Shown here: positions 1 to 15,536 of the stretch, piece after piece
Layout: each line of letters begins with the position of its first letter
Numbering within the stretch: position 1 is the first letter of the stretch
Made by a program: the position numbers and the translations under genes
Origin: Fulvimarina endophytica
GTDB taxonomy: Bacteria; Pseudomonadota; Alphaproteobacteria; Rhizobiales; Rhizobiaceae
Assembly: GCF_003403015.1 (NCBI RefSeq)
Contig: NZ_QURL01000004.1
Coordinates: forward strand, 496,001 to 560,000
Direction of reading: 5' to 3'
DNA length: 64,000 nucleotides
The notes under the pieces: generated by a model
The model's input: the letters and a program-made list of their open reading frames with translations, nothing else
Told to the model about the DNA's origin: nothing
Database searches by the model: none

Positions 1-458
1 CGCACGGCATCGGCATCGAGCAGCGCCGAATCCACCCCGTGCAGACGCATGGAATTGGCCCGTCTCGCATAGGCGTCGCGCTGGGCATCGGAATGGAAGA
101 GGTTGAGGACGCCGCGCTGGCTGACCATCGCATTGTAGTTGAGGTCCTGCTCCAGACCCTCCCACAATTTCATGGACAGCTCGTAGAAGGCCTCGTTGCC
201 CGGCAGGAGATAGTTCGAGCGGATGATCGTGGTGTTGCGCCCGATATTGCCCGAGCCGAGCCAGCCCTTCTCGACGACCGCGATATTGGTGAGGCCGTGT
301 TCCTTGGCAAGATAGTAGGCCGTCGCCAGGCCGTGGCCGCCGCCGCCGATGATGATCACGTCGTAGGAGGATTTCGGCGCCGCATCGCGCCAGGTGGGCG
401 TCCAGCCGCGATGCTTTCGCAGCGCCTCGCGGAAGAGGGAGAAGGCGGAATAGCGCAT
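1..458 (-). CDS. soxB: Sarcosine oxidase beta subunit-like FAD enzyme (N-terminal part)
   Basis: The gene runs off the left edge; about 152 N-terminal codons are visible. The protein opens MRYSAFSLFREALRKHRGW and has a dinucleotide-binding motif YDVIIIGGGGHGLATAYYLA near residues 33-52, followed by the GSGNIGRNTTIIRSNYLLPG stretch typical of SoxB, where FAD/FMN is bound. SoxB oxidatively demethylates sarcosine and passes the methyl group to tetrahydrofolate. N-methylglutamate dehydrogenase subunits are close relatives of sarcosine oxidase subunits, and with an N-methylglutamate synthase-like operon 6-10 kb away this could equally be that subunit (mgdA). The ATG at 458 is chosen because homology starts there; the ribosome site (GAGG) is weak. 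The rest of a soxBDAG/mgd operon probably lies to the left. Confidence 0.85.
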   Translation of the reverse strand, partial: MRYSAFSLFREALRKHRGWTPTWRDAAPKSSYDVIIIGGGGHGLATAYYLAKEHGLTNIAVVEKGWLGSGNIGRNTTIIRSNYLLPGNEAFYELSMKLWEGLEQDLNYNAMVSQRGVLNLFHSDAQRDAYARRANSMRLHGVDSALLDADAV

Positions 459-657
459 GGCCTCGCAACGTCGTTCATGGCGTGGAGAGGATCATCGGGA
501 AGACCCTCCATCCCCCGCATCATGCGCCTCTGCCGGAACGACACTTGACCGCGGGCGACGCCGACATGACCTTCAACGACATCCATGACAAAGTCGAGCG
601 GGCGCACCGGCCGGATGCGATGTCACTCGAAACCGGAAGGCACGGAGCGAAGCGAAG

Positions 658-1659
658 ATGCGAGGCAAGGACGAACGCGAACCGCAAAAGCTCGGCTTCC
701 TGCTGGTGCCCGGCTTTGCGACCATGTCTTATGCCTCGGCGATCGAACCGTTCCGGGCCGCCAACGTCCTGTCGGGCCGCGAGCTCTACGCCTGGCGTCA
801 TGTGGCCCTCGAAACCCCGATGGCGGAGGCTTCGACCGGCCTCCTCTTCAGGGCCGATACCGTGGTCGGCGAGGCCGAGGATTTCGACGGGCTCGTGGTG
901 TGCGCGGCCGGCAATCCCTCCAATTTCGATCACGAGCCGACCTTTGCGTGGCTGAGGCGGCTCGCCCGGCGCGGAACCTGGCTCGCGGGCGTTTCCGGCG
1001 GGCCGTTCGTGCTTGCCGCCGCCGGCCTGCTCGACGGCTATCGCTGCACGATCCACTGGGAGCACGCCGCAGCCTTCGCGGAGGCCTTCGCCGCACCGCG
1101 CCTCACCTCCTCGATCTACGAGATCGACGGCAAGCGCCTCACCTGCGCCGGCGGCATCTCCGCCCTCGACATGATGCATGCGGTCATCGCCGAGGATCAT
1201 GGCGCCGATCTTGCGACCGCCGTCAGCGAATGGTTCCTGCAGAGCCATGTGCGCACCGGGGCCACCGGACAGCTGATGACGCGCTTCGAGCGCTTCGGCC
1301 TGCCGAGCGTCGGCCTGTCGAACGTGATCGAGGCGATGGAGGAGAATGTGGAGGAGCCCTTGCCGCGCGAGCGCCTCGCAGCCCTCGCCGAGGTCTCGAT
1401 CCGCCAGCTCGAACGCTTGTTCGAGAAGCATATGCAGACGACCATCGACCAGCATTACCTGACCATCAGGCTCCGCCACGCCCAGCGGCTCCTGCACCAG
1501 ACCCGGCTTTCCGTCGGCGAGATCGGCATCGCCTCCGGATTTCGCAGCGCGAGCCATTTCTCGCGCACCTACAAGGCCCGCTACGGCCACGGCCCCCGAG
1601 ACGAAAGGTCGCTTCGTTTTCCTCAGGGGAAAACCGTCGCTCGCGCGCGGACCTTGTGA
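658..1659 (+). CDS. GATase1 (DJ-1/PfpI)-AraC family transcriptional regulator
   Basis: A 333-residue regulator. Residues about 10-180 form a class I glutamine-amidotransferase-like (DJ-1/PfpI) sensor domain, including GVSGGPFVLAAAGLLDG and the CTIHWEH segment. Residues about 225-320 form an AraC-type double helix-turn-helix (SIRQLERLFEKH, then SVGEIGIASGFRSASHFSRT). This is the architecture of GbdR, SouR, CdhR and ArgR, which sense glycine betaine, sarcosine, carnitine or arginine and activate catabolic genes. It is transcribed away from the soxB-like gene across a 199-bp spacer, so control of that operon is the natural guess. The ligand cannot be read from the sequence. Confidence 0.88.
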   Translation: MRGKDEREPQKLGFLLVPGFATMSYASAIEPFRAANVLSGRELYAWRHVALETPMAEASTGLLFRADTVVGEAEDFDGLVVCAAGNPSNFDHEPTFAWLRRLARRGTWLAGVSGGPFVLAAAGLLDGYRCTIHWEHAAAFAEAFAAPRLTSSIYEIDGKRLTCAGGISALDMMHAVIAEDHGADLATAVSEWFLQSHVRTGATGQLMTRFERFGLPSVGLSNVIEAMEENVEEPLPRERLAALAEVSIRQLERLFEKHMQTTIDQHYLTIRLRHAQRLLHQTRLSVGEIGIASGFRSASHFSRTYKARYGHGPRDERSLRFPQGKTVARARTL

Positions 1660-1733
1660 TACCTGCTGAACGGGAGGCGGGCGCCGTTGCGGCATCCGCA
1701 GAACCGAACGCGACGAGTCCTCCGGAGGCGGAA

Positions 1734-2459
1734 ATGCCCAAGAAAAAGACGATCGACGTCGAGACCGGCACCGGCACCGGGATCGCGACGTCGGGCCCGG
1801 AGACGCGCGGCGAGACCGGCACGGGGCCGGCCAAGCTCCGGCAGGATCCCCATGCGGTGAAGCCCGTCACCGAGAAGCGGCTGGAAAGCGCAATCGGACG
1901 CGAGGTCCGCAATCATCGGCGCCAGCACAATCTGACGATCGGCGATCTCGCCTCCGCCACCGGCATGTCCCTGGGCATGCTGTCCAAGATCGAGCGCGGC
2001 AACATCTCGCCCTCGCTCGCAACCCTCCAGTCGCTGTCGCAGGCGCTCGGCGTGCCGATCACGAGCTTCTTCAAGGGGTTCGAGCAGGAGCGCAGCGCCG
2101 TCTTCGTGAAGGCCGGCGAGGGCGTGGAGATGGAGCGGCGCGGAACGCGCGCGGGTCACCAGTACAATCTTCTCGGCCATATCGGGAACAATCTGAGCGG
2201 CGTGACGGTGGAGCCCTACCTCATCACGCTGTCGAAGGAATCGGACGTGTTTCCGACCTTCCAGCACGACGGGCTCGAATTCCTCTACATGCTCGAAGGC
2301 GAATTCATCTATCGCCATTCCGAGACGCGGGTGCATATGCGGCCCGGCGACAGCTTCTTCTTCGATGCGGACGCACCGCACGGGCCGGACGACTTCATCA
2401 AGCTGCCCTGCATCTATCTCTCGATCATCTGCTATCCGCAGGACCGGACCGAGCGCTAG
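1734..2459 (+). CDS. XRE family regulator with C-terminal cupin sensor
   Basis: A 241-residue protein with an XRE helix-turn-helix at about residues 54-113 (LASATGMSLGMLSKIERG) and a cupin domain at about 158-236 (FQHDGLEFLYMLEGEF, MRPGDSFFFDADAPHG). Such proteins usually repress or activate amine, amino-acid or polyamine genes in response to a small ligand bound in the cupin. The ATG at 1734 is preceded by GGAGG at a good distance; the frame stays open far upstream, but that part overlaps the AraC gene and looks non-coding. The first 50 residues are low-complexity (Thr/Gly-rich). Transcription with the upstream AraC-type gene is likely, since only 74 bp separate them. Confidence 0.85.
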   Translation: MPKKKTIDVETGTGTGIATSGPETRGETGTGPAKLRQDPHAVKPVTEKRLESAIGREVRNHRRQHNLTIGDLASATGMSLGMLSKIERGNISPSLATLQSLSQALGVPITSFFKGFEQERSAVFVKAGEGVEMERRGTRAGHQYNLLGHIGNNLSGVTVEPYLITLSKESDVFPTFQHDGLEFLYMLEGEFIYRHSETRVHMRPGDSFFFDADAPHGPDDFIKLPCIYLSIICYPQDRTER

Positions 2460-2524
2460 GACGCCGAAGGTCCGGGCAATCGGCCCGTGCAGCGATGCCG
2501 AAGGCCCCTCGCCTCTCGCCCGGC

Positions 2525-2806
2525 CTATGAACGCCCATGGTCGTGAACCGTCTTGCGGATGCGGGCCGTCTTGTAGGCGTCGAAGATCGACATGGCGTAG
2601 ACGAAGAGCCCGCCTGCGAGCTTGCCGACGATCGACACGTTCTCGGCCGCCGTCTGGAGCGTGTAGGCGCCCAGGAGGAGCATGAAGAACAGAAAGACGA
2701 GGCCGCGGACGCTCTGTCCGTTGAGCACCTGTCCCGTGCCCGGCAGGAGGATGGCGGCAGCAAGGACGAGAAACGGATGGTTCGGTTCACAGGCCCTGGC
2801 TCTCAT
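2525..2806 (-). CDS. Small membrane protein, last gene of permease operon
   Basis: A 93-residue protein with hydrophobic segments around residues 10-25, 32-50 and 60-75, so probably two or three membrane helices, and a basic C-terminus. It starts inside the stop of the preceding gene (ATGA overlap at 2803-2806), which indicates translational coupling. I do not recognise a specific family; the fold pattern resembles small TM2-like or DUF5683-like proteins. It ends a six-gene co-directional run that includes the APC permease. Function unknown. Confidence 0.65.
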   Translation of the reverse strand: MRARACEPNHPFLVLAAAILLPGTGQVLNGQSVRGLVFLFFMLLLGAYTLQTAAENVSIVGKLAGGLFVYAMSIFDAYKTARIRKTVHDHGRS

Positions 2807-3504
2807 GCCGCGTCTCTCCTTCGCATTTCCGCCCCTTCGAGCTCGTGGATATCATCGGCGATCGCGGTTAGGCGTCGAAGCACGCGTTCGAGGCGCACGG
2901 CGCCGAGGGGAACCATGCCCATCTCCGCATCGCGATAGATCAGATAGCGACCGCGATCGGCCTCTTCGGCAAGGAACACGATCCTTAAGCCCTTCGGCGA
3001 GAAGATCACCTCCTTCACGCTTGCGTCCTCGAAGAGATCGAGGTGGCGGCGCATGACGGTTTCGCCCGCCGGATCGCCCGGATCGTCGCTGCGGATCGTG
3101 CACTCTTCGGGATAGCCCGCCGGAATGGGGATCTGATGGGACAGGGTGTGGAAGGCGGAAAAGGTCTCGGTGCCGCCCGGGCGCACCATCAGGTCGAACC
3201 GCGCTTTCAGGGGCATCTCTTCGATCAGCGAGACGAGAACCCACAGAGCGGGAAGCTTGCGGACCGTCAGCGTGTCGGGAACCACCTGCACATCGAAGGC
3301 CCGGCCCCTATAGCGCCCTGCGATCCGGGGAAAGCCGGTGGCGGCGATCTGCATTCGGTGTTCGTCGAAAAGGGCGAGGCAATCGTCGAGGTAACGAGCC
3401 CGAGCGGCCGATCTTGCGGCTCTCGCCCGCGCGAGCTGCCATGAGAGGGCCGCCAGCGCGAGGCCGAGCCCGATTGCGGCAACTCCCATCCATGGATCGG
3501 TCAT
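2803..3504 (-). CDS. Membrane-anchored hypothetical protein
   Basis: A 233-residue protein with one N-terminal hydrophobic helix (about residues 6-26) followed by a long soluble part with no motif I recognise. The soluble part is mixed alpha/beta-like and has no conserved Cys or His cluster. It lies 58 bp downstream of the permease stop and overlaps the next gene by ATGA, so it belongs to the permease operon. It could be an accessory or regulatory subunit of the transporter, but this is inference from position only. Confidence 0.65.
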   Translation of the reverse strand: MTDPWMGVAAIGLGLALAALSWQLARARAARSAARARYLDDCLALFDEHRMQIAATGFPRIAGRYRGRAFDVQVVPDTLTVRKLPALWVLVSLIEEMPLKARFDLMVRPGGTETFSAFHTLSHQIPIPAGYPEECTIRSDDPGDPAGETVMRRHLDLFEDASVKEVIFSPKGLRIVFLAEEADRGRYLIYRDAEMGMVPLGAVRLERVLRRLTAIADDIHELEGAEMRRRDAA

Positions 3505-3562
3505 GGGGCCTCACGATCGTCCTGCGACCCATCCCTGCCGGACGGGCCGCAGGCGCTTTCCA

Positions 3563-4984
3563 TCAATAGCCCCGGGGCTTCGGCCAGGGCATGGTGAACT
3601 GCGCGGCGCGGTGGACGTAGCGGTATCGCCGGAAATGAAACCACAGCGAGACGACGATGTAGAAGGACAACATCGCGACGAGCTGCGAGCCGTATCCGAG
3701 GAATATCGCGAAGAAGGCGACGGCGCACAGGCACAGGAGAGCCAGCGCAGGCAGGGGATGGAACGGGTGCACATAGCCCCGCTTGATCGTGTCGAGCGGC
3801 CATTTGCGGCGGAACAGGATGATGTTCAGCGGCATGAAGGTATAGGTCAGTAGGCCCGACAGGATGGAGAAGGTGATGACCTGGTCCAGCGGCGCGCCGA
3901 GCGCGAAGATCAGCGCGATCGGAACGAGGAAGATGATCGAGCGATAGGGCGTGCGATAGACGGGATGGACCGCGCCGAACCATGCCGGCAGGTAGTGGTC
4001 CCGCCCCATGGCGAACCAGGCGCGCGAGGCGTCGTTGATGCAGCCATTGGCCGAGGCGAGCGTCGCGAACATGGTGCCGATGCCCAGGAGCACCATCAGC
4101 CCCATCGAACCGGACAGACGCGCGGCATCGAAGAGCGGCACGCCCGACTGTCCGAGATATTCCCAGGGCATCAGCCCGACGCAGACATACCAGGTCAGGG
4201 TCGCCGCGATCAGGAGCGTCATGATGCCGGCGAGCGTGCCGAACGGCAGGGCTCTGGCCGGAGAGCGAACCTCTTCGGCCGCCTGGGTCGTGCCCTCGAT
4301 GCCGAGATAGAACCAGAGCCCGAAATGCATCGCCGCCAGAACGCCGAGCCAGCCATAGGGCAGGTCCGTGACGAGGTCTGCATGGCGCCACGGGCTGTCG
4401 CCGAAGACCGGAGACGTCGCGACGAACAGGACGAGGATCGCGGAGAAGGCGACCGCGGTGATCACCAGGCTGAAGGTCAGGGTGGCGAGAACGCCGCGAT
4501 AGTTCAGCCAGGCGAGGAACATGATCGCCAGGATGATGAAGGGCCGCTGGTCGAGGCCCTCATGGCCCGTCATGGCGGCGACGGTATCGATCAGGAAGCC
4601 CACCGTGATGGCGTTCGCGGCCTCGAGCATGGTGTAGGCGAAGACGAGGTAGAGGCCGACATTGAACGCCATCAGGGGGCCGATGATGTGCTTAGCCTGG
4701 GTATACTGGCCGCCGGCCGCGGCGACGGTCGAGGTCACCTCGCTGTCGATCATGGCGACGCAGGTATAGAGGAGGCCCGCGAACCAGCACGCGATCAGAG
4801 CCGCATAGGCCCCGCCTTTTCCCACGGCGAAGTTCCAGCCCATATATTCGCCGACGAGAACGATGCCGACGCCGAGCGCCCACACATGGGCTGGTCCCAG
4901 AACCCGCAGCAGCCCGACCTTCTCGCTGGCCGTGACGGCGGCATCGACCTTCGCACCGATCGCAGTGTCGTTGAGTTGGCTCAT
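3563..4984 (-). CDS. APC-superfamily amino acid/amine permease
   Basis: A 473-residue integral membrane protein with about 12 hydrophobic segments and the APC signature near the N-terminus (VWALGVGIVLVGEYMGWNFA), close in style to ethanolamine permeases. It also carries the loop EGTTQAAEEVRSPARALP seen in this group. It should import an amine or amino acid across the inner membrane by cation coupling. Placed next to a methylamine/sarcosine-type module, its substrate may be an N-methylated amine or amino acid, but ethanolamine is possible too: a second similar permease sits at 15537. Three tiny membrane protein genes precede it and two follow it in the same operon, unusual for a normally single-subunit carrier. 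Confidence 0.88.
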   Translation of the reverse strand: MSQLNDTAIGAKVDAAVTASEKVGLLRVLGPAHVWALGVGIVLVGEYMGWNFAVGKGGAYAALIACWFAGLLYTCVAMIDSEVTSTVAAAGGQYTQAKHIIGPLMAFNVGLYLVFAYTMLEAANAITVGFLIDTVAAMTGHEGLDQRPFIILAIMFLAWLNYRGVLATLTFSLVITAVAFSAILVLFVATSPVFGDSPWRHADLVTDLPYGWLGVLAAMHFGLWFYLGIEGTTQAAEEVRSPARALPFGTLAGIMTLLIAATLTWYVCVGLMPWEYLGQSGVPLFDAARLSGSMGLMVLLGIGTMFATLASANGCINDASRAWFAMGRDHYLPAWFGAVHPVYRTPYRSIIFLVPIALIFALGAPLDQVITFSILSGLLTYTFMPLNIILFRRKWPLDTIKRGYVHPFHPLPALALLCLCAVAFFAIFLGYGSQLVAMLSFYIVVSLWFHFRRYRYVHRAAQFTMPWPKPRGY

Positions 4985-4997
4985 GATCCGCCTCCCT

Positions 4998-5165
4998 TCA
5001 GAGCCTGTGCTCTTCGGTCATCGCTTCGATCTCGCCCTCCCGCGAGGATGTCAGCACCTCCGAGCTGTAGGTCGTATCGATCCTGATCCAGTCGAGGACG
5101 ATGATGATCGCAAGAATGCCGGAGACGGCCCAGGCCGCGTATTCCGCAAAATTCCAGATATCCAT
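4998..5165 (-). CDS. 55-residue single-helix membrane protein
   Basis: A short open frame, MDIWNFAEYAAWAVSGILAI then charged residues, encoding one membrane helix (about residues 8-26) and an acidic cytoplasmic-like tail ending in TEEHRL. It fills the space between the 126-residue gene (10 bp upstream) and the permease (13 bp downstream) exactly, with no slack, which is the best argument that it is real. No family recognised. It may be a small subunit that stabilises or regulates the permease. Confidence 0.6.
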   Translation of the reverse strand: MDIWNFAEYAAWAVSGILAIIIVLDWIRIDTTYSSEVLTSSREGEIEAMTEEHRL

Positions 5166-5175
5166 GGCATCGCCC

Positions 5176-5556
5176 TCACTGTCCGTTGAATTTCTCGTCG
5201 ATGACGTCGCGATATTCCTTCTCGGAGAAGCGGAGGATCAGTGCGTAGTATCCGATGACGACGACGATCATCACCAGAAGCTCGATCACGGAGAAGGAAT
5301 AGTTGAAGCGCGACGAGATGATCTCGGACGCGGCGGATGCGTCGGTAAAGCCGAGGCCGTTCCATTGCTCGACCATGACCGGGTTCTGGCCGAGGCTTTC
5401 CCAGGTGGGGTTCTGCGGGCTTTCGCCGACGAGCGTACTGCCGGCGAAGCCGAGCCAGAGAGGAATGTAGAGTGCGCCGATGGTCAGAAGGAGCAGGATG
5501 GCGACATCGAGGATCTGGCCGAACCGGCTCTGTTTGGGGGGAACGTATCGTGTCAT
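5176..5556 (-). CDS. Two-helix membrane protein upstream of permease
   Basis: A 126-residue protein with hydrophobic helices at about residues 16-38 and 87-108 and a polar loop of about 50 residues between them, probably periplasmic. The C-terminal tail is charged (SEKEYRDVIDEKFNGQ). The start ATG at 5556 overlaps the stop of the preceding gene (ATGA), so the two are translationally coupled. I do not recognise the family. Position suggests a partner of the permease at 3563-4984. Confidence 0.65.
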   Translation of the reverse strand: MTRYVPPKQSRFGQILDVAILLLLTIGALYIPLWLGFAGSTLVGESPQNPTWESLGQNPVMVEQWNGLGFTDASAASEIISSRFNYSFSVIELLVMIVVVIGYYALILRFSEKEYRDVIDEKFNGQ

Positions 5557-5855
5557 TTCAGCCTCCCTGCCGCGCGCTGCGCGCGGGCGGCATCCAGGAA
5601 CTTGATGTCCAGCGCGTACATGAAGTCCCGGTCTTCCCGGTAATGGCGCAGCATCGCCAGGATCGCGGCGGTGTTGAAGACGAGGACGATCGCGCCGCCC
5701 GCCATGAGAACGATCCGGGCCGTCGGGCTCGGCGCAAGATCCCATGTCGCCCAGGCGACGAAGGACATCGCGCACCACAGCCCGGCAACGAAAGTGACGG
5801 CGACGACCACGTCCCGTCTGTGCATGGCTGAAATTCTTCGGTTCAGATCGGACAA
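5553..5855 (-). CDS. Two-helix membrane protein, first gene of permease operon (TTG start)
   Basis: A 100-residue protein with two hydrophobic helices at about residues 16-38 and 47-68 and a charged C-terminal tail (HYREDRDFMYALDIKFLDAARAQ broken over residues 71-94). The TTG at 5855 is preceded by GGGAGAGG six bases upstream, a better site than that of the in-frame ATG ten codons later, so TTG is preferred; both are possible. It leads the co-directional operon that runs to 2525. Function unknown. Confidence 0.6.
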   Translation of the reverse strand: MSDLNRRISAMHRRDVVVAVTFVAGLWCAMSFVAWATWDLAPSPTARIVLMAGGAIVLVFNTAAILAMLRHYREDRDFMYALDIKFLDAARAQRAAGRLK

Positions 5856-5975
5856 GGCACCTCTCCCGTCGTCCGGCTGCTGCCGGACGTCCTCCTCGGA
5901 TTCATCTTGCCGTAGCGGGACATTGCGAACGAGTTCTGCGACCCGTCTTTCGCAACTTCACGATGTCATGCACAC

Positions 5976-6012
5976 GGAATTTTCTTCAGCGGAACAAATT
6001 TTGCCTGAGAGG
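5976..6012 (-). promoter_or_regulatory. AT-rich element shared with the mgs/glx promoter
   Basis: On the + strand the block GGAATTTTCTTCAG is followed by AAATTTTGCC and CTGAGAGG. The same pieces occur upstream of the GlxB-like gene (10764-10803): the first block matches at 12 of 14 bases and the second at 8 of 10, with a 4-base difference in spacing. Both copies lie 100-150 bp or less upstream of minus-strand operons in an otherwise GC-rich sequence. A binding site for a shared regulator, perhaps one of the two encoded at 658-2459, is the simplest reading. Confidence 0.5.
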
Positions 6013-6078
6013 TATTGAGGCGCAATTCATTGGCGTTTGCAAGTGGTGCCGCCGAGATTTTTCCGATCAACAGTCCCG

Positions 6079-6148
6079 GATGCAGTGCAACAACGTCGCG
6101 AACATTCGCCTAATCAAGCATTTGCATGGCGTTGTTGTGCACTGCATC
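6079..6148. repeat. Long inverted repeat, operator pair or RNA hairpin
   Basis: The left arm GATGCAGTGCAACAACG (6079-6095) is repeated in inverted form at 6130-6148, perfect except for two extra bases (TG) in the right arm. The arms are 34 bp apart. Each arm contains the short palindrome TGCA-N-TGCA. This could be two operators placed about five helical turns apart (loop repression) or a strong stem in the transcript; no T-run follows, so a simple terminator is unlikely. Confidence 0.55.
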
Positions 6149-6335
6149 AAAGAACATCTACGCCGCGTCCCGTCTTTGCTCCGATCCCCTCCCCGGATCG
6201 GTGGCGGGCGAAGGCCGCATCGAAACACGACCTCGCACGACATCCGCCCGATCGCTTCGCGACCAGGGATGCGAAAACGCTCGCGCACCGCTTGCGCGGC
6301 CCGACCGTTCCCGGCCAGCTCGGCCGGATACGGTG

Positions 6336-7643
6336 TCAGACGTCGAGCGTGTTGTCGCGCTCCCACTGGGTGATGGCGCTGGCGTAGCTCGTCCACTCCT
6401 CGCGCTTCTTCTTGAGGTAGGCGGAGACGAATTCGGGCCCGATCGCCGCGCAGAACGCCTCGTCGCGTTCGAGCGCCCTCAGCGCGTCGAGGAGGTTCAG
6501 GGGCAGGCGCGGGGTATCCGTCGCGCGGTGCCCGTCCACATACATGTTGAGATCGCTGTGGGGACCCGGATCGGCATTGGTCTCCATGCCGCTGAGGCCC
6601 GCCGCGATGATGACGGCCTGGAGGAGATAGGGGTTTGCCGCACCGTCCGGCAGGCGCAGTTCGAAACGGCCCGGCCCCGGCACGCGGACCATGTGGGTGC
6701 GGTTGTTGCCGGTCCAGGTGATGGCGTTCGGCGCCCATGTGGCCCCGGAGGTGGTGCGCGGCGCGTTGATGCGCTTGTAGGAGTTCACCGTGGGATTGGT
6801 GATTGCGGCGAGCGCGGGCCCGTGCCGCATGATGCCGCCGAGGAAGGTCTTGCCCTTGTCCGAAAGCCCGAAGGGAGCTTGCTTGTCGGCGAAGGCGTTC
6901 TGCGAGCCGTCCGTGTTCCAGACCGAGACGTGGCAGTGGCAGCCGTTTCCGGTGAGATCGGTGAAGGGTTTGGGCATGAAGGTCGCACGCAGCCCGTGCT
7001 TCTCGGCGATCGAGCGGACCATGAACTTGAAGAAGGAATGCTTGTCGGCGGTCGCCAGCGCGTCGTCATACTCCCAGTTCATCTCGAACTGGCCGTTCGC
7101 GTCCTCGTGGTCGTTCTGGTAGGGCTTCCAGCCGAGCGCCAGCATATGGTCGCAGATCTCGGCGATGACGTCGTAGCGCCGCATCACCGCCTGCTGGTCG
7201 TAGCAGGGTTTGACGGCGGTATCGAAGTCGTCGGAGATCCGCTTCCCATCGGGCGTCACGAGGAAGAACTCCGCCTCGACGCCGGTCTTGACCCTGAGCC
7301 CCTTGGCCGAGGCCTGGTCAATCAACGTCTTCAGGACGACACGCGGCGCCTGGGCGACCGGCTTGTCCTCCATCACGCAGTCCGCCGGGACCCAAGCGAC
7401 CTCGGGCTTCCAGGGAAGCTGAATGGCCGCATCGCCGTCCGGCATGGCAAAGAGATCCGGATGGGCCGGGGTGAGGTCCAGCCACGTCGCAAACCCGGCA
7501 AAACCCGCACCGTTCTCCTGCATGTCCGCGATCGCCTCGGCCGGAACCAGCTTCGCGCGCTGGGCGCCGAAGAGGTCCGTGAAGCTGATCATGAAGTATT
7601 TGACACCCCGTTCCTGGGCAAATGCAGACAGACTGGTGGTCAT
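6336..7643 (-). CDS. gmaS: Gamma-glutamylmethylamide synthetase / type III glutamine synthetase-like
   Basis: A 435-residue member of the glutamine synthetase superfamily. Metal and substrate motifs are present: GVEAEFFL at 121-128, EDANGQFEMNW at 180-190, the histidine motif NGCHCHVSVW at 233-242, and the ATP/glutamate motif RVPGPGRFELRLPDGAANPY at about 320-339. Family members ligate ammonia or methylamine to glutamate using ATP. The gene is the last of an operon with the three N-methylglutamate synthase subunits, the arrangement of the N-methylglutamate pathway, in which GmaS makes gamma-glutamylmethylamide from methylamine. A plain glutamine synthetase role (GlnT) cannot be excluded by eye. 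Confidence 0.82.
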   Translation of the reverse strand: MTTSLSAFAQERGVKYFMISFTDLFGAQRAKLVPAEAIADMQENGAGFAGFATWLDLTPAHPDLFAMPDGDAAIQLPWKPEVAWVPADCVMEDKPVAQAPRVVLKTLIDQASAKGLRVKTGVEAEFFLVTPDGKRISDDFDTAVKPCYDQQAVMRRYDVIAEICDHMLALGWKPYQNDHEDANGQFEMNWEYDDALATADKHSFFKFMVRSIAEKHGLRATFMPKPFTDLTGNGCHCHVSVWNTDGSQNAFADKQAPFGLSDKGKTFLGGIMRHGPALAAITNPTVNSYKRINAPRTTSGATWAPNAITWTGNNRTHMVRVPGPGRFELRLPDGAANPYLLQAVIIAAGLSGMETNADPGPHSDLNMYVDGHRATDTPRLPLNLLDALRALERDEAFCAAIGPEFVSAYLKKKREEWTSYASAITQWERDNTLDV

Positions 7644-7719
7644 GGGGTCTCCTGGTCTCGAAGCGTTGGAGGTTCGGCCGCCTCGGGCCGAACCATCCGG
7701 CCCGAAACGGAGGGCGGTG

Positions 7720-9048
7720 CTAGAAGCGGGTCTTGCCGGGGATCCACTCGGTGCCGGCGAGCGGGACCTGCGCCATCGCGGCGGCCTCGATCGTCAGGGC
7801 GCACAGATCCTCGGGCTCGAGATTGTGCAGATCGTTGTGGCCGCAGGCGCGTGCGATCGTCTGCGCCTCGAGGGTCATGACCTTCAGGTAGTTCGCGAGC
7901 CGCCGGCCGGCCGCGACCGGATCGAGGCGGGCGGCGAGTTCCGGGTCCTGGGTCGTGATGCCGGCCGGATCCTTGCCCTCGTGCCAGTCGTCATAGGCGC
8001 CGGCCGTGGTGCCGAGGCGGTTGTATTCCTCTTCGTATTGCGGGTCGTTGTCGCCGAGGGCGACCATCGCCGCACTGCCGATCGAGACGGCGTCCGCCCC
8101 GAGCGCCATGGCCTTGGCGACGTCGGCGCCCGAGCGGATGCCGCCCGAGACGATCAGCTGCACCTTGCGGTGCATTCCGAGATCCTGCAGCGCCTGGACC
8201 GCGGGACGAATGCAGGCGAGCGTCGGCTGGCCCACATTCTCGATGAAGACGTCCTGGGTCGCGGCGGTGCCGCCCTGCATGCCGTCGAGGACGACCACGT
8301 CGGCCCCGGCCTTCACCGCGAGCGCGGTGTCGTAATAGGGCCGCGCGCCGCCCACCTTGATGTAGATCGGCTTCTCCCAGTCGGTGATCTCGCGGATCTC
8401 CATGATCTTGATCTCGAGATCGTCGGGTCCCGTCCAGTCGGGATGGCGGCAGGCCGAGCGCTGGTCGATGCCCTTGGGCAGGTTGCGCATCTGCGCCACG
8501 CGATCGGAGATCTTCTGGCCGAGCAGCATGCCGCCGCCGCCGGGCTTGGCGCCCTGGCCGACGACGATCTCGATCGCGTCCGCACGGCGCAGATCGGTCG
8601 GGTTCATGCCGTAGCGCGAGGGCAGATACTGGTAGACCAGCGTCTGCGAATGGTCGCGCTCCTCGTTTGTCATGCCGCCGTCGCCGGTGGTGGTCGAGGT
8701 CCCGGCCGCGCTCGCGCCGCGACCGAGCGCTTCCTTGGCCGTGCCGGACAGGGCGCCGAAGCTCATGCCCGCGATGGTGATCGGGATCTTCAGATGGATC
8801 GGCTTCTTGGCAAAGCGCGTGCCGAGATCGACCGAGGTGTCGCAGCGCTCGCGATATCCCTCGAGAGGGTAACGGGACATCGAGGCCCCGAGAAAGAGCA
8901 GGTCGTCGAAATGGGGAAGCTTGCGCTTGGCGCCGGCTCCGCGAATGTCGTAGATGCCGGTCGCAGCGGCGCGCCGGATTTCCGCCAGGGTCTGGTCGTC
9001 GAACGTCCAGGACTTGCGGGGCGGCGTGCGAGGATTGTGATAGGTCAT
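7720..9048 (-). CDS. mgsC: N-methylglutamate synthase subunit C / GlxD, FMN glutamate synthase domain
   Basis: A 442-residue protein equal to the central FMN/FeS domain of glutamate synthase. Visible are the glycine-rich barrel segments MSFGALSGTAKEALGRGA, KPGGGGMLLGQKI and VVLDGMQGGTAATQD, and the Cys-containing segment near the C-terminus. In the N-methylglutamate pathway MgsABC splits the three glutamate synthase domains into subunits and transfers methylamine from glutamylmethylamide or glutamine to give N-methylglutamate. The ATG at 9048 is chosen since family homology (MTYHNPRTPPRKS) begins there. The same protein family is annotated as GlxD in rhizobia. Confidence 0.85.
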   Translation of the reverse strand: MTYHNPRTPPRKSWTFDDQTLAEIRRAAATGIYDIRGAGAKRKLPHFDDLLFLGASMSRYPLEGYRERCDTSVDLGTRFAKKPIHLKIPITIAGMSFGALSGTAKEALGRGASAAGTSTTTGDGGMTNEERDHSQTLVYQYLPSRYGMNPTDLRRADAIEIVVGQGAKPGGGGMLLGQKISDRVAQMRNLPKGIDQRSACRHPDWTGPDDLEIKIMEIREITDWEKPIYIKVGGARPYYDTALAVKAGADVVVLDGMQGGTAATQDVFIENVGQPTLACIRPAVQALQDLGMHRKVQLIVSGGIRSGADVAKAMALGADAVSIGSAAMVALGDNDPQYEEEYNRLGTTAGAYDDWHEGKDPAGITTQDPELAARLDPVAAGRRLANYLKVMTLEAQTIARACGHNDLHNLEPEDLCALTIEAAAMAQVPLAGTEWIPGKTRF

Positions 9049-9059
9049 CGTGAAAGTCC

Positions 9060-9746
9060 TCAATACGCGTCGGCGTTGTCGATATTGAAGTTGTAGAGGG
9101 TGCGGGCCGAGCCGTAGCGCTTGAACTCGCTGGTCTCGACGCCGGTCACGCCGGCCTTTTCGAGAAGGCGGGCAAGGGTTTCGTGATGCTCGGGCCGCAT
9201 CTCCTTCTCGATGCAGTCGGCCCCGAGGCTCTTGACCGTGCCGCGTACGAAGAGCTTGGCCTCGTAGAGGGAGTCGCCGAGGGCCTCGCCCGCATCGCCC
9301 AGCACCACGAGATGGCCGGACTGGCCCATGAAGGCCGACATGTGGCCGATATTGCCCTCGACGACGATGTCGATGCCCTTCATGGAGATGCCGCAGCGCG
9401 AGGCGGCGTTGCCGCGAATGACGAGCATCCCGCCCCGTCCGGTGGCGCCCGCATATTGCGAGGCGTCCCCTTCGATCACGACCATGCCGGACATCATGTT
9501 CTCGGCGACGCCCGGCCCCGCCGATCCCTTGACGGTGATGGTCGCCTCCGCGTTCATCCCGCCGCAATAATAGCCGACCGGACCCTTGACGCTGATGTTC
9601 AGCGGATCGCTGCAGCCGACGGCGACGGCATGGCTGCCGCGCGGATTGAGGATCTCGTAGTCGAGATCGTTGGTGCCCGCTGGAATGGTGTGAAGGGCCT
9701 TGTTGAGGTCCCGCAGGTCCTGCGTCGCGAGATCGAAAGTCGGCAT
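9060..9746 (-). CDS. mgsB: N-methylglutamate synthase subunit B / GlxC, GXGXG domain
   Basis: A 228-residue protein matching the C-terminal GXGXG beta-helix domain of glutamate synthase: repeated glycine motifs GYYCGGMNAEATITVKGSAG, GGMLVIRGNAASRCG and GNIGHMSAFMGQSGHLVVLG. This domain is structural and links the amidotransferase and synthase parts. It lies 11 bp upstream of mgsC and 28 bp downstream of mgsA in one operon. Annotated as GlxC in rhizobia. Confidence 0.85.
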   Translation of the reverse strand: MPTFDLATQDLRDLNKALHTIPAGTNDLDYEILNPRGSHAVAVGCSDPLNISVKGPVGYYCGGMNAEATITVKGSAGPGVAENMMSGMVVIEGDASQYAGATGRGGMLVIRGNAASRCGISMKGIDIVVEGNIGHMSAFMGQSGHLVVLGDAGEALGDSLYEAKLFVRGTVKSLGADCIEKEMRPEHHETLARLLEKAGVTGVETSEFKRYGSARTLYNFNIDNADAY

Positions 9747-9774
9747 GGTCCGGCTCCGGAGCTAGAAGAAGGGA

Positions 9775-10701
9775 TCAGGCGGCGAGGGTCCGGGAGGCGC
9801 TGGCTTCGCGATCCCAGAAGTAGACGGAGGACGGCTCGGGCTCCCAGACCCTCGCATTGTCGATGTTCGGCAGCCCGACGAGGGCGCGGAACTCCGAGCC
9901 GAAGGCGACGTACTGGTCGGTTTCGGCCATCACCGCCGGCTTGCAGGCGATCGGGTCGCGCAGCACGCCGAAGCCGGTCTTGGTTCCGACGACGAAGGTG
10001 AAGAAGCCGTCGAGATCGTCGAGCGCGCTGGTCAGCGCCTCGCCGAGATCGAGACCGTCCTTCATGCGGGCGGTGAGATAGGCGGCGGCGACTTCGGAAT
10101 CGTTCTGGGTCTCGAACCGCATGCCGAGGCGCTTCAGCTCGCGCCGGAGATTGTTGTGGTTCGAGAGCGACCCGTTGTGGACGAGGCACTGGTCGGCCCC
10201 GGTCGAGAACGGATGGGCGCCGAGCGTCGTCACCGCGGATTCGGTCGCCATGCGGGTGTGGCCGATGCCGTGGGTCCCGGACATCGAGCGGATGTCGAAG
10301 CGCGAGACCACGTCCTTGGGAAGACCGACTTCCTTGTAGATCTCCATGGTCTCGCCGACGCTCATCACGCGAACGGCGCCGTCCAGACCGTCGATCATCG
10401 CCCGCACATCGGCGACGCGGCCGGTCGGCACCTCGGCCACCGCATGGGTGTCCTTGATGCGGAGGGACGAGCCCTTGCCGACGAGATCGCCGAGGCGCCG
10501 CTCGAAATCGGCGAAGGTCACGTCCGGCGTATCGGACTGGATGGTCACCTTGCTGCGACCGGCCGTCTCCTCGCCGTAGATCGCGATGCCGGCCGAGTCC
10601 GGGCCTCGATCGGTCATGGTCACCAGCATATCGGACAGGAGTTGCCCGAGATTCGTGTCGAGTGACCGGTCCTTCAGAAACAATCCGACGATTCCGCACA
10701 T
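9775..10701 (-). CDS. mgsA: N-methylglutamate synthase subunit A / GlxB, class II glutamine amidotransferase
   Basis: A 308-residue class II (Ntn) amidotransferase. The start at 10701 gives MCGIVGLF, placing the catalytic Cys directly after Met as the family requires; an ATG three codons upstream would bury it. Further motifs are GTHGIGHTRMATES and VHNGSLSNHNNLRREL, which bind glutamine. It supplies the amidotransferase step of the MgsABC complex. First gene of the mgsA-mgsB-mgsC-gmaS operon, with the shared AT-rich element upstream. Annotated as GlxB in rhizobia. Confidence 0.86.
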   Translation of the reverse strand: MCGIVGLFLKDRSLDTNLGQLLSDMLVTMTDRGPDSAGIAIYGEETAGRSKVTIQSDTPDVTFADFERRLGDLVGKGSSLRIKDTHAVAEVPTGRVADVRAMIDGLDGAVRVMSVGETMEIYKEVGLPKDVVSRFDIRSMSGTHGIGHTRMATESAVTTLGAHPFSTGADQCLVHNGSLSNHNNLRRELKRLGMRFETQNDSEVAAAYLTARMKDGLDLGEALTSALDDLDGFFTFVVGTKTGFGVLRDPIACKPAVMAETDQYVAFGSEFRALVGLPNIDNARVWEPEPSSVYFWDREASASRTLAA

Positions 10702-11081
10702 GTCATGCACCTTCCGAACTTGCCGTTTGACGAAACCATTCCACAGACGATCGTCGAAGGCAACTGAGAGGAAAGAAATTTTCTTTAGGAGATTTTTGCC
10801 TTGTCCCGATCACGGCTCGGGAGCTAATCTCCGCCCCGCGCAGGACGGAGCGAACATCGCAAACCGGGGCGCGCCTTCGCCCCGGCGGGATGACCCGGCG
10901 GGCATAGGGTCCGGGCTTTCGCGAGGGGCGTGATGCGTCTCGTCCGGGCACATCGGTGCGAACCGGATCGAAAAGCCCGTTTCGCGCCGCCCGTGGTTCC
11001 GCTAGGGGCGGATACGTCCCTCCCATCGGCGCATTCGTCGCCGCGTCATCCCAAACTCGAAATCGTCACGAAACGGCTGCC
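10702..11081. other. 380-bp divergent promoter region between mgsA and purU
   Basis: No gene is supported here. The mgsA side is AT-rich (10764-10803) and holds the element listed separately; the purU side is GC-rich. GCGAACATCGC at 10850-10860 resembles GCGAACATTCGC at 6098-6109 in the permease promoter region, a further possible shared half-site pair. Confidence 0.6.
10764..10803 (-). promoter_or_regulatory. AT-rich element upstream of mgsA, with perfect 15-bp palindrome
   Basis: Contains CTGAGAGG, then the perfect odd palindrome AAAGAAATTTTCTTT (10772-10786), then GATTTTTGCC. The pieces match those at 5976-6012 in front of the permease operon, although CTGAGAGG stands on the other side there. 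It sits about 65-100 bp upstream of the mgsA start, a normal place for an operator or activator site. Confidence 0.5.
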
Positions 11082-11966
11082 ATGAACATCTGCACCCTCA
11101 CGGTCTTCTGTCCCTCAACGCGCGGGATCGTCGCGGCGATCTCCGGTCATCTGGCCGAAAGAGGCTGCAACATCGTCGATTCCGCCCAGTTCGACGATCT
11201 CAGCACGGGTCGCTTCTTCATGCGGATCGGGTTCATTTCGGAGGAGGGCCGCACGCTCGGCGAGATCGAGGACGGTTTCGGCACCATCGCGGCCCCCTTC
11301 GACATGACCTTCGCCTTCCACGACGGACGCGAGCGCATGAAGGTGCTGCTGATGGTCTCGCGCTTCGGCCACTGTCTCAACGACATCCTCTATCGCTGGC
11401 GCATCGGCGCCCTGCCGATCGACATCGTCGGCGTCGTCTCCAACCATCTTGATTACCAGAAGCTGGTGGTGAACCACGACCTGCCCTTCCATCACATCCC
11501 GGTCACGAAGGATAACAAGGCGGCGGCCGAGGCGCGCATCATGGAGATCGTGGACGGGACGAAGACCGATCTCGTCGTCCTTGCCCGATACATGCAGGTT
11601 CTGTCCGACGAGATGTGCCGGACGATGGCGGGCCGCATCATCAACATCCACCATTCCTTCCTCCCGAGCTTCAAGGGGGCCAATCCCTACAAGCAGGCCT
11701 TCGAGAGAGGGGTGAAGCTCATCGGCGCGACGGCCCATTACGTGACGGCCGAGCTCGACGAGGGCCCGATCATCGAGCAGGACGTCGCCCGCGTCACCCA
11801 TGCCCAGTCGGCGGCGGACTACGTGTCGGTGGGCCGCGACGTCGAGGCCCAGGTCCTCTCGCGCGCGATCCACGCGCATATCCACCACCGGGTCTTCCTC
11901 AACGGATCGAGCACGGTGGTCTTCCCCGCCTCCCCTGGAAGCTACGCCTCCGAGCGGCTCGGCTGA
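11082..11966 (+). CDS. purU: Formyltetrahydrofolate deformylase
   Basis: A 294-residue protein with an N-terminal ACT domain (about 1-80) and a formyltransferase-fold domain containing the catalytic Asn188 and His190 in NIHHSFLPSFKGANPY and Asp226 in LDEGP. PurU hydrolyses 10-formyl-THF to formate and THF. The family start MNICTLTVF fixes the ATG at 11082; an open upstream stretch in this frame is non-coding. PurU often accompanies sarcosine oxidase or N-methylglutamate dehydrogenase genes, since these load methyl groups onto THF and PurU releases the carbon as formate. That fits its divergent position to mgsA. Confidence 0.92.
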   Translation: MNICTLTVFCPSTRGIVAAISGHLAERGCNIVDSAQFDDLSTGRFFMRIGFISEEGRTLGEIEDGFGTIAAPFDMTFAFHDGRERMKVLLMVSRFGHCLNDILYRWRIGALPIDIVGVVSNHLDYQKLVVNHDLPFHHIPVTKDNKAAAEARIMEIVDGTKTDLVVLARYMQVLSDEMCRTMAGRIINIHHSFLPSFKGANPYKQAFERGVKLIGATAHYVTAELDEGPIIEQDVARVTHAQSAADYVSVGRDVEAQVLSRAIHAHIHHRVFLNGSSTVVFPASPGSYASERLG

Positions 11967-11995
11967 GACCGGTCCGCAAGATCGCGCACAGCCGG

Positions 11996-12017
11996 CCCCG
12001 GACGTCATCCTCCGGGG
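11996..12017 (+). terminator. Hairpin after purU, possible terminator
   Basis: CCCCGGA and TCCGGGG form a 7-bp stem around an 8-base loop, 30 bp after the purU stop, extended by GG/CC with a bulge. There is no T-run, so an intrinsic terminator is only possible. Confidence 0.35.
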
Positions 12018-12154
12018 GCCGCTTCGCTTTGCCGTGATCGCATTCGCGATTATGGCAGGTCTCGCCGCCATCGAGGGCGCGAATATCAACCAGTCCGGTC
12101 CCGGCAGCACCCGGCCGAAACCATCGCGGCCGGGCCGTGCGAGAGGCGTATCTC

Positions 12155-12988
12155 ATGATTTCAGGCAAGACCCGTCTCATCGCCCATCTCGGATACCCGA
12201 CCGGCTCCTTCCGGGCGCCGATGATCTACAATCCGTATTTCGAGAAGCACGGCATCGATGCCGTCGTCGTGCCGATGGGCTGCAAGCCCGAGGACTATCC
12301 CGACTTCCTGCGACTGGTCTTCAAGCTCTCCAATATCCACGGCGCGCTGGTCACGATGCCGCACAAGGTCACGACGATGGCGCTGCTCGACGAGGCCACC
12401 ACGACGGCCCGTGTCGCGGGCGCCTGCAATGCCGTTCGCCTCGGCCCCGGCGGTGAGCTGGTGGGCGACCAGTTCGATGGAGAGGGCTTCGTGCGCGGCG
12501 CCTTGCGCAAGGGCGCGGTTCTTTCGGGCGCGCGGGTCCTCGTGGTGGGAGCCGGCGGGGTCGGCTCGGCCATCGCCGCCTCGCTCGCGGCCGCAGGCGT
12601 GGGCGAGATCGCCCTCTTCGACAATCACGCCGCCACGATGGAGGCGCTCGCCGCCCGCCTGCGCCGCCACTATCCGGCTCTCATCATCCAGACCGGCTCG
12701 AAGGACCCGGATGGCTTCGACGTCGTGGTGAACGCGACGCCCCTCGGAATGGCCGAGGGCGATCCGCTGCCAGTGGACGTCTCGCGGATCGCAGCATCGA
12801 CATTCGTCGGCGAGGTGGTGATGACGCAGGAGATCACCCTCTTCCTCCACGCCGTGCGCGAGCGCGGATGCGCCTTTCAGGTGGGCACGGACATGCTGTT
12901 CGAGCAGATCCCCGCCTATCTGGAGTTCTTCGGCCTGCGCACGGCGAGCGCCGAGGAACTGCGCGAGGTGGCCAAGATCGCCTATTGA
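12155..12988 (+). CDS. Shikimate dehydrogenase-like (AroE family) oxidoreductase of unknown substrate
   Basis: A 277-residue AroE-family protein. Catalytic Lys71 (TMPHK) and Asp108 (FDGEGF) are kept, as are the nucleotide-binding motif VGAGGVGSAIA (131-141) and NATPLGM. However, the two serines that bind the shikimate carboxylate in AroE (SxS in the motif GNPxxxSxSP) are replaced by Phe19 and Ala21 in GYPTGSFRAP. So it is probably not the biosynthetic enzyme but an AroE paralogue acting on another acid or polyol. The ATG at 12155 has GAGAGG 8 bases upstream; a GTG six codons earlier lacks one. It lies between purU and eutB on the same strand. Confidence 0.8.
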   Translation: MISGKTRLIAHLGYPTGSFRAPMIYNPYFEKHGIDAVVVPMGCKPEDYPDFLRLVFKLSNIHGALVTMPHKVTTMALLDEATTTARVAGACNAVRLGPGGELVGDQFDGEGFVRGALRKGAVLSGARVLVVGAGGVGSAIAASLAAAGVGEIALFDNHAATMEALAARLRRHYPALIIQTGSKDPDGFDVVVNATPLGMAEGDPLPVDVSRIAASTFVGEVVMTQEITLFLHAVRERGCAFQVGTDMLFEQIPAYLEFFGLRTASAEELREVAKIAY

Positions 12989-13194
12989 CGCGGCGCGAGA
13001 CGACGATTCGCGTCCTGCCGTCCTTTCGGGGCGGAAGAGAGGAACGGACGATCGAAGCGCGGCCGGTCCGTGGCACGCGCGCGCAGGCAGAGCGGGCGAG
13101 CAAGCCGTCGGTGCGAGGGCATGGCTTGCCAACCTCCTGATAAACTGCATCTATAGTGGGCAGTTGCGTCGAATGCCTAGCCAGGAGGCCGATG

Positions 13195-14598
13195 ATGACC
13201 GGCGCCTTTCGCAATGTGGTCGGGGACAAGACCTATCGCTTCGACGACCTGCGCACATTGATGGCGAAGGCGACGCCGGCCCGCTCGGGCGACCGCCTCG
13301 CCGGCCTCTCCGCCGAAAATGCCGAGGAACGCGCCGTCGCGCAGATCACGCTCGCCGACGTGCCCCTGAAACGGTTTCTCGAAGACCTGCTGATTCCCTA
13401 CGAGGACGACGAGGTCACGCGGCTGATCGTCGATGGCCACGACCCTGACGCCTTCGCGCCCGTCGCCTCGAAGACGGTCGGAGAGTTCCGCGAATGGCTG
13501 CTCTCGGACGCCGCCGACGAGGCCGCGCTCGCGAGGTTGCGCCCGGGCCTGACGCCGGAAATGGTCGCGGCGGTCAGCAAGATCATGCGCAATCAGGATC
13601 TCATCCTCGTCGCGCGCAAATGCCGTGTGGTCACGAAATTCCGCAACACGATCGGCCTCGAGGGCCGCTTTTCCACCCGCATCCAGCCGAACCACCCGAC
13701 CGACGACGTCAACGGCATCGCCGCCTCCATTCTCGACGGGCTCCTCTACGGGGCGGGCGACGCCGTCATCGGTATCAATCCGGCGACCGACAACGTGCAG
13801 CAGGCCGGCCGGCTCTCGCGCATGATGGCCGAGATCATCGACCGCTACGAGATCCCGACCCAGTCCTGCGTCCTCACCCATGTCACGAACACGCTGGAAT
13901 GCATCGAGGCCGGCGCCCCGGTCGATCTCGTCTTCCAGTCGGTCGGCGGTACCGAGGCGACCAATTCCTCCTTCGGCTTCACCCTCGCCGATCTCGCCGA
14001 GGCCCGCGATGCGGCGCTCTCGCTGAAGCGCGGCACGGTCGGCGACAACGTGATGTATTTCGAGACCGGCCAGGGCTCCTCGCTTTCGGCCGAAGCCCAT
14101 CACGGCGTCGACCAGCAGACCTGCGAAGCCCGGGCCTATGCGGTCGCCCGCCATTTCGATCCGCTTCTCGTCAACACGGTGGTCGGCTTCATCGGCCCGG
14201 AATATCTGTTCGACGGCCATCAGATCATCCGCGCGGGGCTGGAGGATCATTTCTGCGGCAAGCTCCTCGGCGTGCCCATGGGCTGCGACGTCTGCTACAC
14301 CAACCACGCCGAAGCCGACCAGAACGACATGGACAACCTGATGACCCTTCTCGGGGCGGCCGGTTGCACCTTCATGATGGGCATTCCGGGCTCGGACGAC
14401 ATCATGCTCAACTACCAGACCACCTCGTTTCATGACGCCCTCTATCTGCGCAAGATCCTCGGCCTGAAGCCGGCGCCCGAATTCGACGACTGGTTGCGCC
14501 GCATGGCGATCTTCAGGAGCGGCTCGGGGTTCAGCCTGTTCGAAGGCCTGCCGGACGGTTTCTCGCGCAGCCTCGAAGCCGTGCCGGAGGAGGCCTGA
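13195..14598 (+). CDS. eutB: Ethanolamine ammonia-lyase large subunit
   Basis: A 467-residue EutB, close to the usual 450-465. Recognisable stretches are KIMRNQDLI, FRNTIGLEGRFSTRIQPNHP, SVGGTEATNSSFGF, MYFETGQGSSLSAEAHHGVDQ and NHAEADQNDMDNL. With EutC it forms the adenosylcobalamin-dependent enzyme that splits ethanolamine into acetaldehyde and ammonia. AGGAGG at 13183-13188 is 6 bases from the ATG at 13195 and only 3 from the adjacent ATG at 13192, so the second is preferred. No cobalamin riboswitch is visible upstream. Confidence 0.95.
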   Translation: MTGAFRNVVGDKTYRFDDLRTLMAKATPARSGDRLAGLSAENAEERAVAQITLADVPLKRFLEDLLIPYEDDEVTRLIVDGHDPDAFAPVASKTVGEFREWLLSDAADEAALARLRPGLTPEMVAAVSKIMRNQDLILVARKCRVVTKFRNTIGLEGRFSTRIQPNHPTDDVNGIAASILDGLLYGAGDAVIGINPATDNVQQAGRLSRMMAEIIDRYEIPTQSCVLTHVTNTLECIEAGAPVDLVFQSVGGTEATNSSFGFTLADLAEARDAALSLKRGTVGDNVMYFETGQGSSLSAEAHHGVDQQTCEARAYAVARHFDPLLVNTVVGFIGPEYLFDGHQIIRAGLEDHFCGKLLGVPMGCDVCYTNHAEADQNDMDNLMTLLGAAGCTFMMGIPGSDDIMLNYQTTSFHDALYLRKILGLKPAPEFDDWLRRMAIFRSGSGFSLFEGLPDGFSRSLEAVPEEA

Positions 14599-14599
14599 C

Positions 14600-15511: not shown

Positions 15512-15536
15512 AGCAACGAGACAACGGAGACAGGGC

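Follow-up and report, generated by a model that had tools for sequence, protein, structure and literature searches.

A conserved six-gene operon around an APC permease as a candidate importer of methylamine

How does methylamine enter a cell that degrades it by the N-methylglutamate pathway? In the literature that we searched, the pathway itself is well studied, while the uptake route is not settled. The question is raised by a stretch of 64,000 nucleotides from Fulvimarina endophytica (the window), in which a permease of the APC family and five small genes lie next to genes of this pathway. We name the small genes and their products by length in amino acids: S100, S126, S55, S233 and S93. The six genes form a new, sharply bounded system that is inherited together. 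We think it fairly probable that they encode a dedicated, probably multi-component, pathway-linked importer of a small methylated amine, for which monomethylamine (as methylammonium) is the most likely identity.

The six-gene operon is not named in the literature searched, and as far as we found, no transporter of such a kind is described there. The passages of PMC4543880 on the mgsABC-gmaS operon of P. aminophilus, a neighbour of the block, do not mention the six genes. The abstract of PMC5023235 refers to amino-acid permeases that respond to methylamine and does not identify them; the table in section 11 of that paper contains no such permease. A figure legend in PMC5520151 lists the ammonium channel AmtB for methylamine uptake.

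The block S100-S126-S55-APC-S233-S93 runs without interruption from 5855 to 2525 on the minus strand, with all six open reading frames present:

5553-5855, minus strand: S100, 100 amino acids, TTG start codon, two transmembrane (TM) helices and a charged, probably cytosolic tail (HYREDRDFMYxLDIKFLD); median ratio of nonsynonymous to synonymous substitution rates (dN/dS) 0.11
5176-5556, minus strand: S126, 126 amino acids, two TM helices with a loop of about 55 residues between them and a conserved C-terminal tail (SEKEYRxVIxEKF)
4998-5165, minus strand: S55, 55 amino acids, one probable TM helix and a conserved acidic tail (LTSSREGExEA)
3563-4984, minus strand: APC permease, 473 amino acids, first TM helix (TM1) like that of ethanolamine permeases (VGEYMGWN), from an isolated subfamily
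2803-3504, minus strand: S233, 233 amino acids, one N-terminal TM helix and a folded domain with a predicted TtfA/CCDC47-like fold
2525-2806, minus strand: S93, 93 amino acids, two or three TM helices and a weak resemblance to DUF5683 (the window protein is below the cut-off)

The junctions S100/S126 and S233/S93 are 4-base ATGA overlaps, and the remaining gaps are 10, 13 and 58 bases. For S100, the TTG start is supported because most aligned homologues have ATG at that place. By hydropathy, there are two TM segments in S100, two in S126, one in S55, three in S93, and a single N-terminal one in S233. The same simple rule finds no TM segment in 38 of 96 homologues of S55 and 9 of 87 homologues of S233, and one to three in those of S93, so the counts for these three proteins are marginal. 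An earlier prediction made from the letters alone (the original prediction) had described six co-directional genes of these sizes, with ATGA overlaps and short gaps, whose products are all in or anchored to the membrane. Our reading of the minus strand agrees with it, and all five small proteins of the window have TM segments, with the caveat just given for S55, S233 and S93.

Hidden Markov model searches showed that the block stays whole. Among 100 records (99 loci and the window), 84 have homologues of all six genes in the same order and on the same strand, and the other 16 are contig ends, pieces with flanks of about 1.5 kb, or one false match. Another 24, larger loci include 21 that are complete and three that stop at a contig end. 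Together, these give 105 distinct loci with all six genes, and no untruncated locus lacks one. Both alpha- and betaproteobacteria contribute to the 105 loci, as does one lineage that does not belong to the window's class. In Paracoccus aminophilus JCM 7686, the six genes are on pAMI6 (JCM7686_RS21935, RS21940, RS24840, RS21950, RS21955 and RS21960). The reading frame of the permease is broken or split in three loci (L033, L088 and L110).

Furthermore, all six genes are under purifying selection. In close pairs, third codon positions take most of the changes in every gene, and besides S100, the median dN/dS is 0.10 for S126, 0.15 for S55, 0.05 for the permease, 0.19 for S233 and 0.125 for S93. 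As a control, six other APC loci with 3-kb flanks and one with 0.3 kb were searched at a threshold of E = 1, and none had a match to any of the small genes; nor was there one in positions 10701-64000 of the window, which include a second APC gene. The original prediction had reasoned that a system would be favored if other genomes also kept the five small genes together with the permease, and that absent, unlinked or non-coding small genes would speak against one. All untruncated loci that we examined conform, and the opposing possibility is not borne out, because the block is whole in 105 loci, its genes are under selection (dN/dS of 0.05-0.19), and no control APC locus has a homologue of the small genes.

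A gene for a universal stress protein was seen twice with the block. In the distant locus L144 it lies inside, between the permease and S233 (assigned by eye), and in Paracoccus sp. MA it is just upstream (L005, 10403-10816). Its position hints at a nucleotide-binding regulator of the transporter.

The permease is the only one of the six proteins that matches any model above a curated cut-off, and it does so in Pfam only (AA_permease and AA_permease_2, with 100.6 and 99.8 bits versus gathering scores of 24.6 and 27). Its best model in NCBIfam is ethanolamine permease (TIGR00908), at 185.2 bits, which is below the equivalog cut-off of 381.75. A tblastn search against plasmids found the permease in 22 records (60-90% band), with 68% as the lowest identity; the next among the matches listed were at most 32% identical. 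A scan of GTDB species genomes gave 398 permease-matching stretches, of which we used the best 80. In a sample of the phylum, 14 of 398 genomes (the genome of F. endophytica included) have the permease, all of them at least 65% identical, and no match has an E value between 1e-196 and 1e-70. By sequence, the permease is an isolated subfamily: the relatives that we found are at least 64% identical, and the next among the matches listed are at about 32%.

The block is linked to methylamine catabolism. In the window, these genes are nearby:

6336-7643, minus strand: gmaS, of the gamma-glutamylmethylamide synthetase type (TIGR03105, 666.8 bits versus a cut-off of 469.6)
7720-9048, minus strand: mgsC-like, glutamate synthase domain
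9060-9746, minus strand: mgsB-like, GXGXG domain
9775-10710, minus strand: mgsA-like, glutamine amidotransferase domain
1-458, minus strand: 5' part of a homologue of mgdA, 74% identical to MgdA of S. meliloti; the rest lies to the left of the window (contig positions 495211-496458)

The name of the TIGR03105 model is type III glutamate-ammonia ligase, and we assigned GmaS by context. With mgsABC and mgdA linked, this is an N-methylglutamate locus (of mgdABCD, mgdA alone was sought in this genome). Within the stretches available for 101 loci, which include the window and L009 (both of them sources of queries) and many of which are cut short, we found mgsA in 60, mgsB in 58, mgsC in 56, gmaS in 54, mgdA in 35, tmm in 26 and dmmD in 11. 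The original prediction had placed the block next to enzymes that use a methylated amine, and these counts for mgsA and gmaS bear it out. The arrangement varies: relative to mgsA and gmaS, the block is divergent in 43 loci (and in 6 more with mgsA only), in tandem behind them in 5 (including the window), convergent in 3, and in tandem in front in 2. (L042 was scored inconsistently.) With at least four relative orientations, the link between block and pathway has been remade several times. L144 (G944) does not belong to the window's class. Identity there is 65% for the permease but only 42% for GmaS, and one strand carries the six genes together with the gene for the universal stress protein and with mgd, gmaS and mgs genes.

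The pathway and the block also co-occur across genomes, in two tests that both ignore phylogeny. In a sample of the family, MgsC is present in 5 of 6 genomes with the permease versus 52 of 191 others (p = 0.008). In a sample of the class, it is present in 4 of 5 genomes with S126 versus 45 of 379 others (p = 0.001), and those 4 are from one genus.

We also considered that the same multi-component importer might take up dimethylamine or trimethylamine (or trimethylamine N-oxide). The tmm and dmmD genes in 26 and 11 of the 101 loci would fit this, as would L138-L143 (six loci from one genus), where mgsA comes directly after the block, in the same direction, and dmmDABC is divergent on the other side of the block. 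In addition, a DmmA query matched 35 of 43 genomes with the system. However, DmmA has no match in the other 8 or in the genome of F. endophytica itself, which has the methylamine genes, and L144 yielded only N-methylglutamate genes among those that we sought. We favor monomethylamine because it is the common factor, and these larger amines seem unlikely to be the main substrate.

These results show that the block exists, is invariant and under selection, and is linked to methylamine catabolism; the substrate, a physical complex and the role of each small protein are what we infer. The small proteins gave few leads. Scanned against Pfam, S100, S126, S55 and S233 (19-20 members each) had weak and inconsistent matches only. 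For S100, these included Rv2743c (16 of 20 members, best E = 0.0034) and FA_desaturase (7 of 20, best E = 0.0005), which we treated as chance similarity between membrane segments. The steadiest match for any small protein is that of S93 to DUF5683 (17 of 20 members, best E = 4.9e-5), and S93 from the window scores 17.5 bits, below the gathering score of 26.7. The profiles of S126 and S100 found nothing below E = 0.9 among the sequences in the PDB. A structural model of S126 has two long helices, and two short helices in the loop (predicted local distance difference test [pLDDT] of 80, predicted template-modelling score [pTM] of 0.36). In four loci from one genus (L100-L103), the profile of S126 gives two partial matches that overlap, as might be expected from an insertion in the loop.

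MetPS is a secondary carrier of the NSS family that requires a single-TM subunit of about 60 residues. It and other carriers with small subunits resemble our system in having a small single-TM protein; the family of the carrier is different. The Pfam scan of 19 members of S55 gave no subunit family of the MetPS-like kind. GkApcT, which by sequence is the closest solved relative of our permease, was crystallized with a single-TM protein, MgtS, packed on its fifth TM helix (PMC5803215; 5OQT). This pair of a bacterial APC permease and a small single-TM protein is a precedent for S55, with the differences that MgtS was supplied by the E. coli host used for expression and that it is the only small partner. 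In S. meliloti Ak57, S55 and the permease are in one frame because the stop codon of S55 is lost (L009, 11782-13401). We gave this fusion no weight as evidence of association because the genes are not fused in L107, L108 and L109.

S233 is more informative. Its predicted structure is confident (pLDDT 94.6, pTM 0.90), with a single helix at the N terminus and a compact alpha/beta domain. As aligned by VIA-align, the best structural match is TtfA (6t84; Z = 11.5 over 154 residues, with a root-mean-square deviation of 3.9 Å). Two translocon chains are also similar: 6w6l_7 (Z = 10.0 over 175 residues) and 9i78_4 (Z = 9.6), which we take to be CCDC47 and a fungal relative. The next unrelated chain has Z = 6.9. 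The likeness was informative only in this second look with VIA-align. Thus, S233 is predicted to combine the fold of the TtfA family with a single N-terminal TM anchor, and an Arg-rich stretch after the TM helix suggests that the domain is cytosolic (the positive-inside rule). The original prediction recognized no family for the five small genes; this stands insofar as none scores above a curated cut-off, and needs amending for S233, with its predicted fold, and for the weak resemblance of S93 to DUF5683.

TtfA is an accessory to the membrane transporter MmpL3. It has a predicted N-terminal TM helix (residues 2-24), its essential part is residues 1-205, and truncations that do not interact with MmpL3 do not function (as described in PMC6593404). 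CCDC47 has a single TM helix and a globular cytosolic domain, and it belongs to a complex for multipass membrane proteins (PMC7505659). Given these likenesses, a role in the assembly, stabilization or gating of the permease is a natural guess for S233. The analogies have their limits. We detected no sequence similarity between S233 and TtfA, and TtfA serves a transporter from another superfamily, whose cargo is mycolate lipids. CCDC47 is part of the ribosome-bound insertion machinery of the eukaryotic endoplasmic reticulum (PMC7505659).

Alternatively, the permease might be a lone carrier of methylamine or another amine, and the five small proteins might form a separate, co-regulated membrane module for assembly, stress or the envelope. 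To our knowledge, bacterial APC carriers generally function without dedicated subunits. And without MgtS, GkApcT had a similar initial rate of uptake and took up less substrate in total (PMC5803215). Still, the premise of the original prediction that APC carriers normally act alone is too strong, as SLC7 heterodimers exist and GkApcT was crystallized with a partner. In our system, the permease and the small genes are never separated in the 105 complete loci, and the control APC loci lack the small genes, which leaves this explanation with only a small chance. A different APC permease from Phyllobacterium (L117, 2610-2960) is preceded by two small hypothetical genes that are unrelated to ours, and other APC carriers may also have small partners.

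Evidence about the substrate comes from TM1. The stretch VGEYMGWN of our permease is close to GEYFGW and GDFAGWN of annotated ethanolamine permeases (Eat) and unlike GAGIFVL of a haloarchaeal APC protein; an Embleya row of this alignment was in a wrong frame and was left out. The pattern G-[ED]-[YF]-x-G-W, which is not a curated rule, is present in our permease and in four annotated Eat proteins, though the window's own TIGR00908 permease departs from it. In GkApcT, backbone amides in the same part of TM1 bind the carboxylate of the substrate (PMC5803215), so a cationic amine that lacks a carboxylate would suit an acidic residue at this place. Eat proteins are among the closest known systems: they are the best match in NCBIfam, they are similar in TM1 and in the region of the sixth TM helix, and their substrate is a small cationic amine without a carboxylate. 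The permease is nonetheless only about 30% identical to them, at 185 bits versus 381.75, and none of the five small genes is in the annotated Eat loci that we inspected (three with 3-kb flanks and one with 0.3 kb). The window has a separate ethanolamine cluster near the methylamine genes (13156-16973), with eutB, eutC and a second APC permease that scores 484.5 bits against TIGR00908; ethanolamine is served by this second permease. Between purU and eutB there is a shikimate-dehydrogenase-like gene (12137-12988) that is below the NCBIfam cut-offs shown. In favor of an amino-acid intermediate or another amine as the cargo of the block's permease (N-methylglutamate, gamma-glutamylmethylamide, glutamate or ethanolamine) are that APC carriers in general transport amino acids, that the closest solved relative by sequence is GkApcT, and that the best NCBIfam match is TIGR00908. 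We very much doubt this reading, because the TM1 of our permease is of the ethanolamine-permease type rather than that of the haloarchaeal amino-acid-type APC, its score is far under the ethanolamine cut-off, and the permease beside eutBC exceeds that cut-off.

Two features suggest how the importer might be regulated:

5977-6002, no strand assigned: A+T-rich inverted repeat upstream of S100, a putative operator or promoter element that is common to homologous loci
1830-2459, plus strand: XRE-cupin regulator gene (HTH_3 and Cupin_2); its start codon is not settled

The sequence CTTGACAG is upstream of S100 in 55 of 89 loci. Among its forward matches, 42 of 54 are at 103-126 bases before the start of S100, and the A+T-rich inverted repeat follows. 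We built a matrix for the repeat from 49 other loci, with the window excluded, and its best match in positions 1-16000 of the window is at 5977-6002, with a score of 24.4; six shuffles of L139 reach 3.9-10.6. Further good matches are near XRE-cupin, purU or mgsA genes in L009, L107, L109 and L100-L103. In L138-L143 the best matches are 12.5-16.2, little above the shuffles, and in L004 the best is 11.4. A regulator gene of the window's type is found in 48-49 of 101 loci (the window and L009 included). Joint control of import and catabolism seems likely from these patterns.

We propose that the APC protein would form the path of the substrate, with the acidic residue of TM1 (G-E-Y-M-G-W-N, at the broken helix) near the carboxylate site of amino-acid APC proteins. 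S55, S100 and S126 would pack on the permease as small subunits. S233 would reach from the membrane into the cytosol and might act as an assembly, stabilizing or gating factor, by analogy with TtfA and MmpL3, and S93 might assist assembly or sit beside the permease in the membrane. Imported methylammonium would pass to GmaS and MgsABC, and uptake and catabolism are probably governed together by the XRE-cupin regulator. The original prediction of a multi-subunit or regulated uptake system for a methylated amine is thus supported, as far as co-conservation and linkage to the pathway can support it. More tentatively, and with less than even confidence, we suggest a six-component APC transport complex with fixed, dedicated subunits (including a cytosolic factor of the TtfA/CCDC47 type) that acts as a high-affinity and possibly substrate-sensing importer of methylammonium, co-regulated with its catabolism.

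Several observations weigh against our proposal. The acidic residue in TM1 is not proof of the substrate: the window's own TIGR00908 permease has asparagine at that place, and a Phyllobacterium permease that is annotated for amino acids has a similar TM1 (GDFSGWN). Co-conservation does not by itself prove a complex. The pTM of the S126 model is low. For S233, the profile had no match up to E = 10 among the sequences in the PDB, and Foldseek against the PDB gave no match below E = 0.2. As for the pathway, 40 of 100 loci have neither mgsA nor gmaS in the stretch examined, some through truncation. (MgsC is encoded elsewhere in the genome for 22 of the 23 of these loci that were tested, versus 57 of 197 in the family sample, which also upholds the predicted link.) L029, G488 and G131 (82% complete) are genomes with the system and no match to MgsC. 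Conversely, 50 genomes of the class sample have MgsC, and 45 of these lack a match to S126, so the importer is optional and the pathway does not require it. The system is patchy as well: in a sample of relatives, S126 has a match in 3 of 61 genomes, and neither the two genomes of the same genus nor any of 34 others of the family has one. The block looks like an accessory module that is gained or lost as a whole.

Methylated amines matter for marine nitrogen and for atmospheric chemistry, and the operon is a concrete, testable candidate for the importer of methylamine. If our proposal is correct, the permease would be an APC carrier of bacteria to which a constant, dedicated set of accessory proteins belongs, a kind of carrier that we did not find described in the literature searched. 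It would also extend the TtfA/CCDC47-like fold to an importer of small molecules.

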